64,000 nt of DNA from Paradesertivirga mongoliensis. Its GTDB lineage: Bacteria > Bacteroidota > Bacteroidia > Sphingobacteriales > Sphingobacteriaceae. The notes under the pieces were generated by a model that worked only from the letters and a program-made list of their open reading frames with translations, did no database searches and was not told where the DNA came from. The first letter of the stretch is position 1. Every line of letters starts with the position of its first letter. Shown here one piece after another: positions 47,008 to 53,667 of the stretch. The stretch lies in contig NZ_JAFMZO010000003.1 in assembly GCF_024436395.1 (NCBI RefSeq), positions 186,001-250,000 on the forward strand, in the 5' to 3' direction. The translations under genes and the position numbers were made by a program.

Positions 47008-48036
47008 TCAGCTGCCGAGATTACGATGAACGTACGGAATTACCTCCTGCCCTATCAATTCAATCGATCGCAATAATTTTGACTGCGGTAAAGCGGCATT
47101 ATCCATTTGAAAGGTAAGCCTCGAAATTCCACCTAAGGCCTCACTGTGCCGAAGTATCTTTTCAGCAACCTCCTCTGGCCCGCCAACCAACAGCGCACCA
47201 GTTTCTCCTGCCTGAGCTTCGAAATGCGCGCGTGTCACAGGAGGCCAGCCACGCTCCTTACCAATCCGGGTAAAGGTCTCTGCGTAGCCTGGATAGAAGT
47301 CATTCACCGCAGCCTCCCTGGTCTCGGCAATATATCCCAGCGAATGCAGGCCAACTTTCAAACGCTCTGGCGCATGCCCTGCCTTGTCACCAGCTTGCCT
47401 GTATAAATCGATTAAAGGTCTGAAACGATGCGTTTCATCACCAATAACAGCTACCATCAGCGGCAGGCCCAATGTTCCCGCACGAACAAAAGAAGCAGGC
47501 GTTCCGCCTACTCCTAACCAAATCGAAATATGCTCCTGAACTGGTCTGGGGTATATAGCCTGCTCCTTAAGAGGCGGACGAAACCTGCCTGACCACGATA
47601 AAGTTTCATTTTCCCTGATCTGAAGAAGCAGGTCCAGCTTCTCAGAAAAGAGGGCGTCATAATCATTAAGGTTCAGGCCAAAAAGGGGATATGCTTCAAT
47701 AAATGATCCCCGACCCACAACCATTTCTGCACGCCCGCCGGATATCAGATCGAGTGTCGCAAAATTCTGAAACACGCGCACCGGATCGGCAGCACTTAAC
47801 ACAGTTACAGCACTGCTTAAACGAATTGTCTTGGTTCGGGAAGCAGCAGCCGCAAGTATGAGCGCGGGCGCCGAGTCAAGAAATTCTTTGCGGTGATGCT
47901 CACCTATACCAAAAACATTTAGTCCCGCCTGGTCAGCATGTTCAATTCTCTCCAGCAATTGCGACATAGCATTTACATTATCTGCGCTATTATTGTTTAA
48001 GCCAGCTGCGGCAAAACTGTCAATTCCGATTTCCAT
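47008..48036 (-). CDS. LLM-class flavin-dependent oxidoreductase
   Basis: A bacterial-luciferase-like monooxygenase of 342 residues with the typical TIM-barrel strands: QLLERIEHADQAGLNVFGIG followed by EHHRKEF, ALILAAAASRTKTIRLSSAV, DPVRVFQNFATLDLISGGRAE with GRGSF, and IWLGVGGTPAS. The EHH motif is usual in alkanal-monooxygenase-like members. The cofactor is FMNH2 or F420, more likely FMN in this phylum. The substrate is unknown. No partner flavin reductase adjoins it. Confidence 0.9.
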   Translation of the reverse strand: MEIGIDSFAAAGLNNNSADNVNAMSQLLERIEHADQAGLNVFGIGEHHRKEFLDSAPALILAAAASRTKTIRLSSAVTVLSAADPVRVFQNFATLDLISGGRAEMVVGRGSFIEAYPLFGLNLNDYDALFSEKLDLLLQIRENETLSWSGRFRPPLKEQAIYPRPVQEHISIWLGVGGTPASFVRAGTLGLPLMVAVIGDETHRFRPLIDLYRQAGDKAGHAPERLKVGLHSLGYIAETREAAVNDFYPGYAETFTRIGKERGWPPVTRAHFEAQAGETGALLVGGPEEVAEKILRHSEALGGISRLTFQMDNAALPQSKLLRSIELIGQEVIPYVHRNLGS

Positions 48037-48312: not shown

Positions 48313-48675
48313 ATGGAACCTAAATTCGAAGGCGGCATCAACATCGCTATTAAAATCCCTAAAAGTAAGTACGACGAAACCGTCCGCTTTTATAAAGATA
48401 TTTTGAAACTTGAAGTCACTGAAAAGCCAATTGAGAACCCCACGGTATCAAGAACCCACGAGGTTAAATTCGGATCAAATGTAGTGTGGTTGGATTGCGT
48501 AGATAATTACAGCCATTCTGAAACCTGGCTGGAACTTAAAACGTCAAATATCGACGACGCTACCCGACATCTTCGTTCCAATGGAATTGAACCATGTGAC
48601 GAACTGGAAAAAATCCCTGAGAACATGCACTGGATTCAAGATCCTTCCGGAACGGTGTTTATACTTGGACAATAA
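48313..48675 (+). CDS. VOC-family (glyoxalase/bleomycin resistance fold) protein
   Basis: A 120-residue protein with the beta-alpha-beta-beta-beta repeats of the vicinal oxygen chelate family: INIAIKIPKSKYDETVRFYKD starts the first module and LELKTSNIDDATRHLRSNGI the second, ending in WIQDPSGTVFILGQ. The usual first metal ligand is replaced by Asn/Ala-type residues, so enzymatic activity is uncertain; it may be a ligand-binding member. It is divergent from the monooxygenase gene. Confidence 0.8.
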   Translation: MEPKFEGGINIAIKIPKSKYDETVRFYKDILKLEVTEKPIENPTVSRTHEVKFGSNVVWLDCVDNYSHSETWLELKTSNIDDATRHLRSNGIEPCDELEKIPENMHWIQDPSGTVFILGQ

Positions 48676-48912: not shown

Positions 48913-48943
48913 TTTGACTTTACCGTGAAGTATCTTACATTTG
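48913..48943 (+). promoter_or_regulatory. Promoter of the pheA operon
   Basis: TTTG (48913-48916), exactly 19 bp, TACATTTG (48936-48943). Transcription should start near 48949, about 10 nt before the leader-peptide ATG. Confidence 0.75.
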
Positions 48944-48959
48944 CCACATCAAACAGAAA

Positions 48960-49010
48960 ATGCAACAAATCAACACATATTATTTCGGTTACTTTTACTA
49001 CTACCAGTAA
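48960..49010 (+). CDS. Aromatic leader peptide of the pheA attenuator
   Basis: The 17-codon frame encodes MQQINTYYFGYFYYYQ. Residues 7-15 are Tyr or Phe except one Gly (six Tyr, two Phe), a density that chance does not readily explain. It lies between a consensus promoter and a pair of alternative hairpins in front of an aromatic amino acid operon. The stop codon (49008-49010) ends 2 nt before the first hairpin arm, so a ribosome finishing the peptide would cover that arm. This is the arrangement of a classical ribosome-mediated attenuator that senses Tyr- and Phe-tRNA. Confidence 0.85.
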   Translation: MQQINTYYFGYFYYYQ

Positions 49011-49012
49011 GA

Positions 49013-49087
49013 GCCGGGACTGATATGTTTTGAAACCAAACGAAATTATATACAGAGTCCCGGCCAAACAGCCGGGACTTTTTTTTT
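49013..49087 (+). promoter_or_regulatory. pheA transcription attenuator (antiterminator and terminator)
   Basis: Three arms are present. Arm A GCCGGGACT (49013-49021), arm B AGTCCCGGC (49056-49064), arm C GCCGGGACT (49071-49079) followed by T8 (49080-49087). A and C are identical and both complement B perfectly over 9 bp. B:C with a 6-nt loop and the T-run is the terminator; A:B with a 34-nt loop is the antiterminator and excludes it. The A:B loop can fold further through GTTT/AAAC. The T-run ends 4 nt before the pheA ATG. Confidence 0.88.
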
Positions 49088-49091
49088 AACA

Positions 49092-49922
49092 ATGAGCAAG
49101 AAAAGAGTAGCAATTCAGGGCATCAAAGCATCGTTTCACGAAGAGGCTGCGCTTAAGTTTTTTGGTAAAGATATCGACACCATAGAGTGTAATAGCTTTA
49201 AACAAACCTGCGAGGAACTAAAAAACAAAAATGCCGACTTTGTGGTGATGGCCATCGAAAATTCCATTGCCGGAAGCCTGCTGCCGAATTACACACTGCT
49301 CCGCGATTATCATTTTTCGATCATCGGCGAAGTTTATTTGCACATTCAGTTAAATCTGCTGGCACTGCCAGGTGTAAAGTTCGAGGATATTAAACGTGTG
49401 GAATCGCATCCGATAGCTATTCGCCAGTGCGATGATTTCTTTAATGAGTACCCGCATTTAAAAGTAGCCGAGAGTGTTGACACTGCCGCCTGCGCAAAAC
49501 GCATTCAGGATGAACAGCTGAGGGATACAGCCGCTATCGCCAACAAATTGGCAGCAGAGACTTATGGCCTCGATATTATGGAGCGCCGAATTGAAACTAA
49601 TAAAAAGAACTATACCCGTTTTTTGATACTGACGGATAACAAAGACATAGTTGTTGAGGATGCAAACAAAGCATCTATATCTTTCCAGGTTGCCGATGAG
49701 CCGGGATCACTGGTAAAAGTGCTGAACGTTTTTGCTGACCATAATATCAATATGAGTAAGGTGCAAAGCATGCCCGTTTTAGGCAAGCGCAATCAGTATA
49801 ACTTCTATATCGATCTGGAGTTTCCGTCGAAGGAGGATTATGATGAAGCGGTACGGAAAATATTAAGATATACGTTAAATTTTGCCATAATGGGCGAGTA
49901 TAGGAAAAATGACTCGGTGTAA
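49092..49922 (+). CDS. pheA: Prephenate dehydratase with ACT domain
   Basis: It converts prephenate to phenylpyruvate, the committed step to phenylalanine. The catalytic domain spans about residues 1-185 with AIENSIAGSLLPNY, VESHPIAIRQC, DTAACAKRI and the catalytic TRF motif at 175-177 (KKNYTRFLIL). A regulatory ACT domain follows (about 190-265; DEPGSLVKVLNVFADHNINM), suggesting allosteric control by Phe. No chorismate mutase domain is fused here; that activity is carried by the next gene. It is the first gene of the operon and is preceded by the attenuator, with its start 4 nt after the terminator T-run. Confidence 0.95.
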   Translation: MSKKRVAIQGIKASFHEEAALKFFGKDIDTIECNSFKQTCEELKNKNADFVVMAIENSIAGSLLPNYTLLRDYHFSIIGEVYLHIQLNLLALPGVKFEDIKRVESHPIAIRQCDDFFNEYPHLKVAESVDTAACAKRIQDEQLRDTAAIANKLAAETYGLDIMERRIETNKKNYTRFLILTDNKDIVVEDANKASISFQVADEPGSLVKVLNVFADHNINMSKVQSMPVLGKRNQYNFYIDLEFPSKEDYDEAVRKILRYTLNFAIMGEYRKNDSV

Positions 49923-50080: not shown

Positions 50081-51190
50081 ATGAAACTGAATCTCAACAT
50101 AGAGCCATTAAGCAACTGGCTAACTCCAAAAAACCAGCCCCTTATAATCGGCGGCCCATGCAGTGCTGAAACTGAAGAACAACTTCTGGCAACTGCTCAC
50201 CTTCTTGCTAAAACCGGAAAAATCTCCGTTCTAAGAGCAGGTATCTGGAAACCACGTACCCGTCCGGGAGAATTTGAAGGTATTGGAAGCATCGGCTTAG
50301 AATGGTTAAACCGTGCAAAAGCAGAAACCGGCTTGCCTATTACGGTAGAGGTTGCTAATGCAAAACATGTTGAGGAGGCTTTAAAGGCTAAAGTTGACAT
50401 TCTTTGGGTTGGTGCCCGTAGCACCGTGAATCCTTTTACTGTACAGGAAATTGCTGATGCACTTAGAGGAGTTGACATCCCGGTAATGGTAAAAAACCCG
50501 GTTAACCCCGATCTACAGTTATGGATTGGTGCCCTGGAGCGTTTCAACCAGGCTGGCATCACTAAATTGGCTGCTATCTCACGTGGGTTTTCTTCTTTCG
50601 AAAAGTCTGCTTTCCGTAACGAACCAATGTGGGAACTAACTATCCAGTTAATGACTATGTGCCCTGAGTTACCGGTAATTTGCGATCCAAGTCATATTTG
50701 CGGTAACCGCGACTTAATTCCTTACATTTCTCAAAAAGCATTAGACTTAGAGATGGACGGATTAATGATCGAATCTCATATCGACCCCTCTGTTGCCTGG
50801 ACTGATGCAAAACAACAGGTTACTCCGGCTGCTTTGTCTGATCTGATCGATAATTTAACTATCCGTACTCCGGAGCCGAAAAGCGCAGAAGTTTCTGACA
50901 AACTAACTGAACTTCGTAAACAAATCGATAAAATTGACGACCAGATCATCCAAAAAATGTCTGAGCGTATGGCAATAGTTGATAAGATTGGAGAGTATAA
51001 ACGCGATAACAACATCACCATTTTACAGCTTAACCGTTGGGAAGAAGTGATTGAAAGACGTGCAAACTTTGCTAAAGCGTTAAAGCTTGACGAAGCTTTC
51101 ACAACGAAAATGCTCGAGCTGATACATAACGAATCTATTCGCAAGCAAACTGAAATCATGAATGCTACTGAGACCTTAGAGCAAAAATAA
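50081..51190 (+). CDS. DAHP synthase fused to chorismate mutase
   Basis: A bifunctional enzyme of 369 residues. The N-terminal part (about 1-262) is a type I, KDO8P-synthase-like 3-deoxy-7-phosphoheptulonate synthase with IIGGPCSAETEEQLL, RAGIWKPRTRPGEFEG, WVGARSTVNPF, MVKNPVNPD and CDPSHICG. The C-terminal part (about 272-358) is an AroQ-type chorismate mutase (KLTELRKQIDKIDDQIIQKM, then ERMAIVDKIGEYK). This order is known from Bacteroidota enzymes such as that of Prevotella nigrescens, where the mutase domain confers feedback control by prephenate. Its stop overlaps the aroA ATG by one base. Confidence 0.95.
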   Translation: MKLNLNIEPLSNWLTPKNQPLIIGGPCSAETEEQLLATAHLLAKTGKISVLRAGIWKPRTRPGEFEGIGSIGLEWLNRAKAETGLPITVEVANAKHVEEALKAKVDILWVGARSTVNPFTVQEIADALRGVDIPVMVKNPVNPDLQLWIGALERFNQAGITKLAAISRGFSSFEKSAFRNEPMWELTIQLMTMCPELPVICDPSHICGNRDLIPYISQKALDLEMDGLMIESHIDPSVAWTDAKQQVTPAALSDLIDNLTIRTPEPKSAEVSDKLTELRKQIDKIDDQIIQKMSERMAIVDKIGEYKRDNNITILQLNRWEEVIERRANFAKALKLDEAFTTKMLELIHNESIRKQTEIMNATETLEQK

Positions 51191-52461
51191 TGGATCATTT
51201 GATTCTTTCTAAACCCGGCAAAAACACTAATTGCACCATTCAGCTGACTGGTTCGAAAAGTGAAAGTAACCGGGCTCTGATATTAAATGCACTTAGCGGC
51301 GGCCGGGTGAAGGTGAAGAACCTTTCGAGCGCTGATGATACAGTAACCCTTGCGGGAATTGTGGAAGAGGTGAAAGGTGAAAGATTGAAGGTGAAAGATG
51401 GCGACCAGGCCATTCTTGAACTACCGGTAATAAATATAGGTCCTGCTGGAACTGCCATGCGTTTTTTAACGGCGTATTTTGCCGTTACCGGTACTGAGGT
51501 TATTCTTACAGGCACAGAGCGGATGAAGCAACGCCCTATCGGGATACTGGTAGATGCATTACGTAGCTTAGGTGCAGAGATTGATTATGTAGAAAAAGAC
51601 GGATTTCCACCCCTGCAATTTAAAAGTTCATTTGAGCAAAAAAAGGATAAGATAAGCATCCGGGGAAACATAAGCTCACAGTTTATTACAGCATTGCTTT
51701 TGGTTGCTCCGTCTCTGCCTAAGGGCCTTGAACTTACCATTGAAGGCGAACTTACTTCCCGGCCATATGTGGAAATGACTTTGAGGATGCTGCAGGAAGC
51801 TGGGATTGAACACCACTGGAAGGATGATGTAATAAAGATCGCTTCGCAAGAATTCAAAGATTCTGAGATTACGGTTGAACCGGATTGGAGCGCGGCTTCG
51901 TACTGGTACTCCATCGCGGCTTTGAGTGAAAAAGGATCGGTTATACTCCCCTATTTGAAAAAGGATAGCCTTCAGGGCGATAGCAGGATTGTGTCCATTA
52001 TGGAGAGCTTCGGGATCAGCACAGAGTTTACTGCAGTGGGTTTACAGCTGAGCCGTAACGGCAACAGTCCTAAAGGTACTTTCTTTGATTTAAAAGATTG
52101 TCCGGATTTAGCGCAAACCGTTATTGTTTGTAGTGCGGCTTTAGGTCATAACGCTACCTTTACAGGATTGGAGACTTTAAAGATCAAGGAAACTGACCGG
52201 ATTGCCGCTTTACAGAATGAATTGGCAAAGATTGGTGTAAGCCTGAATGAAGATCATGAGAACTACCATCTGGACTGTTCCGGACTACATTTCCCAGATA
52301 AGATTGCGATCAGCACGTACGAAGATCACAGAATGGCAATGGCATTCGCGCCCCTGGCACTCAAAATAAACAAACTCGAAATTGAAGAACCGCAGGTAGT
52401 TGGAAAATCTTACCCAAGCTTTTGGGAAGATTTGAAAAAAGCCGGGTTTGAAATAGAATAG
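51190..52461 (+). CDS. aroA: 3-phosphoshikimate 1-carboxyvinyltransferase (EPSP synthase)
   Basis: It transfers enolpyruvyl from PEP to shikimate-3-phosphate. The 423-residue protein has LTGSKSESNRALILNALSGG, the PEP-site GPAGTAMRFLTAYFAVTG and TGTERMKQRPIGILVDALR, SSQFITALLL, KIKETDRIAALQNELAKIG and YEDHRMAMAFAPL. Inserted around residues 60-70 is VEEVKGERLKVKDGD, encoded by four 7-bp units (51369-51396) and apparently absent from typical family members; it lies in a surface loop and need not affect activity. The gene overlaps the preceding stop by one base, so translation is coupled. Confidence 0.95.
   Translation: MDHLILSKPGKNTNCTIQLTGSKSESNRALILNALSGGRVKVKNLSSADDTVTLAGIVEEVKGERLKVKDGDQAILELPVINIGPAGTAMRFLTAYFAVTGTEVILTGTERMKQRPIGILVDALRSLGAEIDYVEKDGFPPLQFKSSFEQKKDKISIRGNISSQFITALLLVAPSLPKGLELTIEGELTSRPYVEMTLRMLQEAGIEHHWKDDVIKIASQEFKDSEITVEPDWSAASYWYSIAALSEKGSVILPYLKKDSLQGDSRIVSIMESFGISTEFTAVGLQLSRNGNSPKGTFFDLKDCPDLAQTVIVCSAALGHNATFTGLETLKIKETDRIAALQNELAKIGVSLNEDHENYHLDCSGLHFPDKIAISTYEDHRMAMAFAPLALKINKLEIEEPQVVGKSYPSFWEDLKKAGFEIE
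51369..51396 (+). repeat. Four 7-bp units inside aroA
   Basis: GGTGAAA, GGTGAAA, GATTGAA, GGTGAAA in tandem. The period of 7 is not a multiple of 3, yet the frame stays open and reads VKGERLKVK. It looks like an intergenic-type repeat that entered the coding region. Confidence 0.6.
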
Positions 52462-52575: not shown

Positions 52576-53667
52576 ATGGCAGGTAACTCCTTCGGACAAT
52601 TATTCCGCATCACAACTTTCGGTGAATCACACGGTGAAGCAATTGGTGTAATCATCGATGGCTGCCCTTCGAATATTAAAGTAGATATAGAGTTTATCCA
52701 AAGCGAGTTGGATAAACGGAAACCCGGGCAGTCAAAAATTACCACTCAACGGAAAGAAAGCGATACCGCTCAAATACTTTCGGGAGTTTTTGAAGGAAAA
52801 ACAACCGGCACTCCTATCGCCTTGTTGATTCCTAACGAAGACCACCGTTCCAAAGATTACGATCACAATAAAGATATCTTCCGCCCCTCACATGCCGACT
52901 TCACGTATCAGTCTAAATACGGGATTAGAGATTATCGTGGCGGCGGCAGATCTTCGGCCCGCGAAACTGCAGCAAGAGTAGCCGCCGGAGCAATTGCAAA
53001 GTTATTCCTGGAACAGAAAGGTATCGAGATATTTGCTCATGTTTCTTCGGCAGGTACGATCGATGCGCCTAATATTAAGATTGACAGCGTCAAAGAACTT
53101 GTCGAAATCAGGGAAAGCAATATCGTTCGCTGCGCCGATCCGGCAACAGCCAATGAAATGATAGAATTTATTGATCAGGTGCGCAAGGATGGCGATACGG
53201 TGGGCGGAAAGGTTTCCTGTATCATTAAAAACTGTCCGGTTGGTTTAGGCGAGCCGGTTTTTGATAAACTTCATGCGGATTTAGGAAAAGCAATGCTCAG
53301 CATCAACGCCGTTCACGGTTTTGATTACGGTTCCGGTTTTGCCGGCTCTGAAATGAGAGGTTCTGAACATAACGATCTGTTTGTGCCTCCAAACGGAGAT
53401 AAATCTGTAACTACATTAACGAATTACTCTGGAGGAATACAGGGTGGTATTTCGAATGGAATGGATATCACCTTCCGTGTGGCATTTAAACCTGTAGCAA
53501 CCATCATGAGCAATCAGCAAACAGTGGATAAGGAAGGCAATGCTGCCGAAATAAAAGGTAAAGGCCGGCATGATCCATGTGTGGTGCCTAGGGCGGTTGC
53601 GATTGTAGAAGCCATGGCTGCACTTGTGATAGCGGATCACTGGCTGCGGAACGAAGCTTATAAGTAG
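52576..53667 (+). CDS. aroC: Chorismate synthase
   Basis: It makes chorismate from EPSP with reduced FMN. The 363-residue protein carries the three signatures: [19 protein letters not shown] near the N-terminus, [20 protein letters not shown] in the middle and [20 protein letters not shown] at the end. Length and motifs are complete. It is the last gene of the pheA-aroG/CM-aroA-aroC unit, which contains no tyrA or aromatic aminotransferase gene. Confidence 0.97.

Follow-up and report, generated by a model that had tools for sequence, protein, structure and literature searches.

By our estimate, with a probability of roughly 0.93, the pheA-DAHPS/CM-aroA-aroC operon of this bacterium is controlled by a three-hairpin, ribosome-mediated attenuator of the trp/phe type, a reading that we base on the sequence and on its comparison across relatives. 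Operon and attenuator lie in the 64,000-nucleotide stretch of DNA analysed here (the window), and all features given below are on its + strand. A Bacteroidota-type promoter (48913-48943), made up of TTTG at 48913-48916 and, after 19 nt, TACATTTG at 48936-48943, is followed by a leader peptide ORF (48960-49010; ATG at 48960, TAA at 49008-49010) that encodes MQQINTYYFGYFYYYQ and contains six Tyr and two Phe as its regulatory codons. Arm A of the antiterminator (segment 2; GCCGGGACT, 49013-49021) is identical in sequence to arm C (segment 4; 49071-49079). Arm B (segment 3; AGTCCCGGC, 49056-49064) is common to antiterminator and terminator, and arm C together with the T8 run at 49080-49087 would constitute, with arm B, an intrinsic terminator (49071-49087). 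The first controlled gene is pheA (49092-49922), coding for a prephenate dehydratase (PF00800, E=1.1e-56) with an ACT domain (PF01842). Behind it follow the genes for a DAHP synthase fused to chorismate mutase (50081-51190; PF00793, PF01817), for EPSP synthase (aroA, 51190-52461; PF00275) and for chorismate synthase (aroC, 52576-53667; PF01264).

On re-reading, the letters and coordinates that the first-pass annotation had given for promoter, leader frame, arms and T run were all exact, and its naming of the first gene as pheA agrees with the matched prephenate dehydratase and ACT domains. Its scheme of two hairpins, A:B and B:C, had missed a third: the protector hairpin (1:2, 48970-49033), in which the regulatory codons at 48970-48999 pair with 49006-49033, a segment that includes arm A. 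With this addition, the region has the full three-hairpin design.

All three hairpins are more stable than shuffled sequences, with none of 200 shuffles as good in any of the cases. The B:C terminator reaches -19.5 kcal/mol (z -6.8), the A:B antiterminator -21.1 kcal/mol (z -5.4) and the protector, formed by the leader codons and the arm A region, -22.4 kcal/mol (z -5.7). The protector comprises 26 pairs, with arm A paired to the Tyr/Phe codons, and it is close to equal in energy to the A:B hairpin. In folds of the transcript that end with arm B, 72 of 90 relatives had arm A paired to more than 70%.

The aromatic leader frame of the window is not a product of chance. Among about 1,650 short frames of 10 to 25 codons on both strands of the window, it is the only one with eight aromatic residues and the sole one on the + strand in which aromatics make up at least 40%. 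Tyr and Phe occupy 8 of the 16 residues, that is, the leader ORF is enriched in codons for the product of the operon.

For comparison, we used a PheA-based collection of loci from named genomes and from 201 genomes of Sphingobacteriaceae, in which 111 loci of this family yielded 92 distinct leader sequences. An aromatic-rich leader peptide followed by a terminator was present in all 92, a typical peptide being M..NTYYFGYFYYFSKSRD. The N-terminal codons of these leaders drift and the aromatic core stays, with Tyr, Phe and Trp accounting for 25%, 17% and 1.6%, respectively, of the codons after the start. Of the 92 relatives, 84 have a promoter pattern, TTG-N17..22-TANNTTTG, in the 110 nt ahead of the leader start, compared to 7 of 460 shuffled sequences; the pattern usually sits 15 to 19 nt ahead of that start.

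Base pairing was examined in 46 non-redundant leaders (alignment A2), using 500 shuffles and slid versions of the helices as controls. The covariation score of each of the three helices exceeded that of all 500 shuffles, which ignore the relatedness of the leaders, and that of every slid version. For the B:C terminator, 98.5% of the cells were paired, and five pairs had changed on both sides (1.1 in shuffles). The A:B antiterminator was paired in 94.3% of the cells, with a covariation score of 0.120 compared to 0.080 in shuffled and at most 0.053 in slid versions; its count of doubly changed pairs is weaker evidence taken alone, as 57 of the 500 shuffles were as high. As for the protector core, 90.2% of the cells were paired over the 22 pairs tested, eight pairs had changed on both sides (4.3 in shuffles), and the score was 0.159 as opposed to 0.128 in shuffled and at most 0.092 in slid versions. 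This signal belongs to the full helix only: the outer 7 bp of the protector, taken by themselves, did not covary above shuffles.

An illustrative example is given by L069 and L075, in one clade, where CGG among the final codons of the leader has become CAG, giving a peptide with SQD rather than SRD, and where the change is matched by CTGG in arm B and CCAGG in arm C. In most genera, the arm A bases GTAAGAGCCGGGACT are read as ..SKSRD-stop. The present genome and near relatives of it have the same GTAAGAGCCGGGACT in another frame, the leader ends in ..YQ-stop or ..FR-stop, and arm A follows the stop. The position of arm A behind the leader stop, as first described, thus applies to this genome; in most relatives the arm overlaps the last codons and the stop. 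As arm A keeps its nucleotides across two reading frames, we conclude that it is the RNA bases, and not the end of the peptide, that are conserved. These leaders offer a natural alignment that cleanly shows the pairing of the RNA taking precedence over the sequence of the peptide. The first-pass annotation had expected arms A, B and C to co-vary among relatives and the Tyr/Phe run to persist as other leader codons drift, which is what the alignment revealed, and its proposal of an attenuator is well supported by this comparative evidence.

According to the proposed mechanism, RNA polymerase would start at about position 48950 and a ribosome would begin the 16-codon leader. With an ample supply of charged Tyr- and Phe-tRNA, this ribosome would reach the stop codon with its footprint over arm A, B:C would form, and transcription would stop at the T run before pheA. 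A ribosome stalled in the Tyr/Phe run would break the protector and set arm A free, such that A:B could form as arm B emerges, no terminator would arise, and the operon would be transcribed. If there is no translation, the leader codons would sequester arm A by pairing with it, and the terminator would form. We infer here that the leader is translated, that tRNA charging is sensed and in which direction the system responds.

In folding calculations with a mask in place of the ribosome (footprints of 10, 12, and 15 nt), A:B had a probability of 0.89-0.92 with the mask at Tyr7-Tyr13 and of 0.00-0.18 with the mask at the stop. The terminator always wins at full length and equilibrium in the folding model, which suggests that antitermination would depend on the order of folding during transcription, as in other attenuators. 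In 81 of the 92 leaders, the core of arm A starts at -6/-5 or +7/+8 nt relative to the stop. Under a model of ribosome masking, this spacing argues that a ribosome at the stop codon would cover arm A. Arm A matches less well in a few of the relatives (L094, L101, L093).

The hairpins might act on translation of pheA or on the stability of its mRNA, rather than on transcription termination, and it is true that in the present genome only a few bases separate the end of the T run behind arm C from the pheA ATG. We consider this very unlikely, as the relatives have anything from about 11 to 94 nt between terminator and pheA and the U run directly following arm C is nearly invariant, a combination that fits termination. 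The longest of these gaps, 94 nt in L090 (G040), is unusually far and contains extra sequence.

Could the strong structure of the region reflect the binding of a protein or metabolite, as in a riboswitch, a T-box or the target of an RNA-binding protein, with the peptide being incidental? What is conserved are aromatic codons and arms with a geometry that fits a ribosome, and the peptides of different families are alike in composition, not in sequence. Between positions 47500 and 50500, no curated Rfam leader, T-box or riboswitch reached its gathering score, the best match being an unconvincing one to Thr_leader (20.8 bits compared to a gathering score of 55, E=0.94). Taken together, these observations make a binding leader highly improbable. 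Equally hard to sustain is the idea that B:C is the terminator of the upstream gene, a glyoxalase-like ORF at 48313-48675 on the same strand, or a constitutive partial terminator, next to a chance aromatic ORF: a terminator can well sit between two genes, but the conserved promoter lies between upstream gene and terminator, Sphingobacteriaceae and other families retain the aromatic leader jointly with arm A and the terminator, and arm A, for which a mere terminator would have no need, covaries with arm B, such that the comparative data have largely refuted this idea already.

Attenuation by a leader peptide with both Tyr and Phe codons raises the question why Tyr is so prominent ahead of a gene for prephenate dehydratase. 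Leaders from Sphingobacteriaceae contain on average 4.75 Tyr and 3.2 Phe, compared to 3.4 Tyr and 5.0 Phe in those from other Bacteroidia families (n=45). A possible answer lies in the operon's supply of both amino acids, Tyr as well as Phe. Among its genes is that for the DAHP synthase-chorismate mutase, a step common to all aromatic amino acids. Elsewhere in the genome, a 589-codon ORF (L296 735-2504; G000 C1:664634-666403) matches the aromatic amino acid hydroxylase family PF00351, and this putative enzyme may make Tyr from Phe. The match lies in the N-terminal half of the ORF, in two pieces, and a long C-terminal part is without assignment.

No prephenate dehydrogenase was found above the cut-off in the present genome, which is 93.9% complete, a level at which absence is not proven. 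A weak match to this enzyme (L287) turned out to be pyrroline-5-carboxylate reductase and has no aromatic leader. A second match to the DAHP synthase family (L288), likewise without an aromatic leader, is probably KDO-8-phosphate synthase, judging from the reading of its start. The same-genus genome G011 gave no hydroxylase match. In Echinicola, a member of the same phylum, fitness data have led to the proposal that phenylalanine hydroxylase provides one of two ways to Tyr (PMC7311316). If Tyr is made from Phe here too, both amino acids would have pheA as their gate, and the connection of Tyr-rich leaders with the making of Tyr from Phe can be put to the test.

The same architecture precedes pheA in many families of Bacteroidia, with different peptides such as MSKQYFYNGFYFFFFFKRETGLL, MKRFNTYFWFYYYFFKALPGFERVAVCC, and MTNNKAYGYFYFSFYFTGSRECFC. 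A strict detector, which requires leader, terminator and antiterminator arm to be present together, recognized 49 of 90 Bacteroidia pheA loci (16 of the 90 being from Sphingobacteriaceae), missing several that are clear by eye; it recognized none of 450 shuffles and none of 90 reverse complements. In addition, a covariance model built on Sphingobacteriaceae reaches loci of other families at E <1e-3. Some Bacteroidia pheA genes are without an attenuator, mostly in family f12 and also in part of f15 and in others. No comparable leader was found in 29 pheA loci from other classes of the phylum, a limited sampling of the best-scoring loci.

The present window has a single attenuator unit. In family f61, two successive units of leader and terminator lie ahead of one pheA in 6 of 21 loci (L195, L264, L266, L268, L273, L280), within about 400 bases upstream of the gene; in three of these cases, one unit is without a detected antiterminator arm of at least 5 bp. 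Tandem units also occur, within the same distance of pheA, in L197 (f36) and, by eye, in L198 (f47). A limited literature search found no description of tandem attenuators for amino acid biosynthesis. We tentatively propose, as a scenario that we hold to be somewhat less probable than its opposite, that the attenuator arose early in Bacteroidia, that its joint sensing of Tyr and Phe reflects the role of pheA as the entry to both, Tyr being made from Phe by the hydroxylase, and that it was duplicated in tandem in some families.

Tandem attenuators as such are known from the Salmonella mgtCBR operon (PMC3641672), which resembles the tandem units of Bacteroidia in having two short leader ORFs in one operon and differs from the pheA operon in gene function. 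The pheA and trp attenuators of E. coli share with the present one a leader rich in the regulated amino acid, a set of protector, antiterminator and terminator, and a terminator before the first biosynthetic gene. Unlike them, the present family mixes Tyr and Phe codons, sometimes with Trp, Tyr being the most frequent; its sequence is different and without an Rfam match, it has a Bacteroidota promoter, and arm A is often found inside the last leader codons and the stop.

The first-pass annotation had called Bacteroidota cases little known. This needs qualifying, as a 2021 transcriptome of Flavobacterium psychrophilum provided strong indications of leader-peptide attenuators ahead of operons for amino acids (PMC9723704), and a Bacteroidetes cis-regulatory candidate, the Bacteroid-trp motif (RF01692), was listed in an RNA motif search in 2010 (Weinberg; PMC2864571). 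The pheA switch itself has barely been described in Bacteroidia. The F. psychrophilum study reports a conserved structured 5' element upstream of pheA in this species and other Flavobacteriaceae, referred to as original and unassigned (PMC9723704). It precedes the same gene as the present attenuator, in the same bacterial class, and the main text of that report presents it without peptide, arms or covariation. The Bacteroid-trp motif, although likewise a Bacteroidetes candidate for control of an amino acid operon, belongs to the trp operon, not to pheA, and gave no match to the present region. A survey of attenuation by Lopatovskaya et al. (2010; cited in PMC4833913) may overlap with the present work; our literature search for leaders with tyrosine codons found none. 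Since leader-peptide attenuation and a 5' element of pheA have both been reported earlier for flavobacteria, the present attenuator is not categorically new. What is added is its explicit anatomy, covariation for all three hairpins, a class-wide distribution and the tandem arrangement. Classical leader-peptide attenuation would thus be a widespread control of aromatic amino acid synthesis in Bacteroidia, a class of importance in soil, water, and the gut, with a pheA leader that is covered by no Rfam family.

Leader peptides also precede other biosynthetic genes. We located his, ilv, and trp genes by family search and checked their upstream regions. A Trp-rich leader, MNFKHIRNWWWQDATRVW, followed by a strong terminator precedes trpE (L251, G000 C1; also L253). 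This leader had no Rfam match at E 0.1, the Bacteroid-trp family included; that motif reportedly carries Trp codons ahead of trp genes. A His-rich leader, MVISFTHHMHHTHRHHGDR, precedes hisG in the present genome (L224, G000 C2), as do His-rich leaders in most of the relatives checked (L215-L225); a matching terminator was not obvious at the hisG leader. With Trp-rich and His-rich leaders in the same genome, the organism appears to use the leader strategy repeatedly. Directly ahead of ilvD, no clear leader was seen in the present genome. Short frames rich in Leu, Ile, and Val, for example MLLWVINNVIIVLVGLIPHP and MLLLLSILFLNFV, are present upstream of ilvD in L228, L229, and L232, and these may be branched-chain leader peptides.
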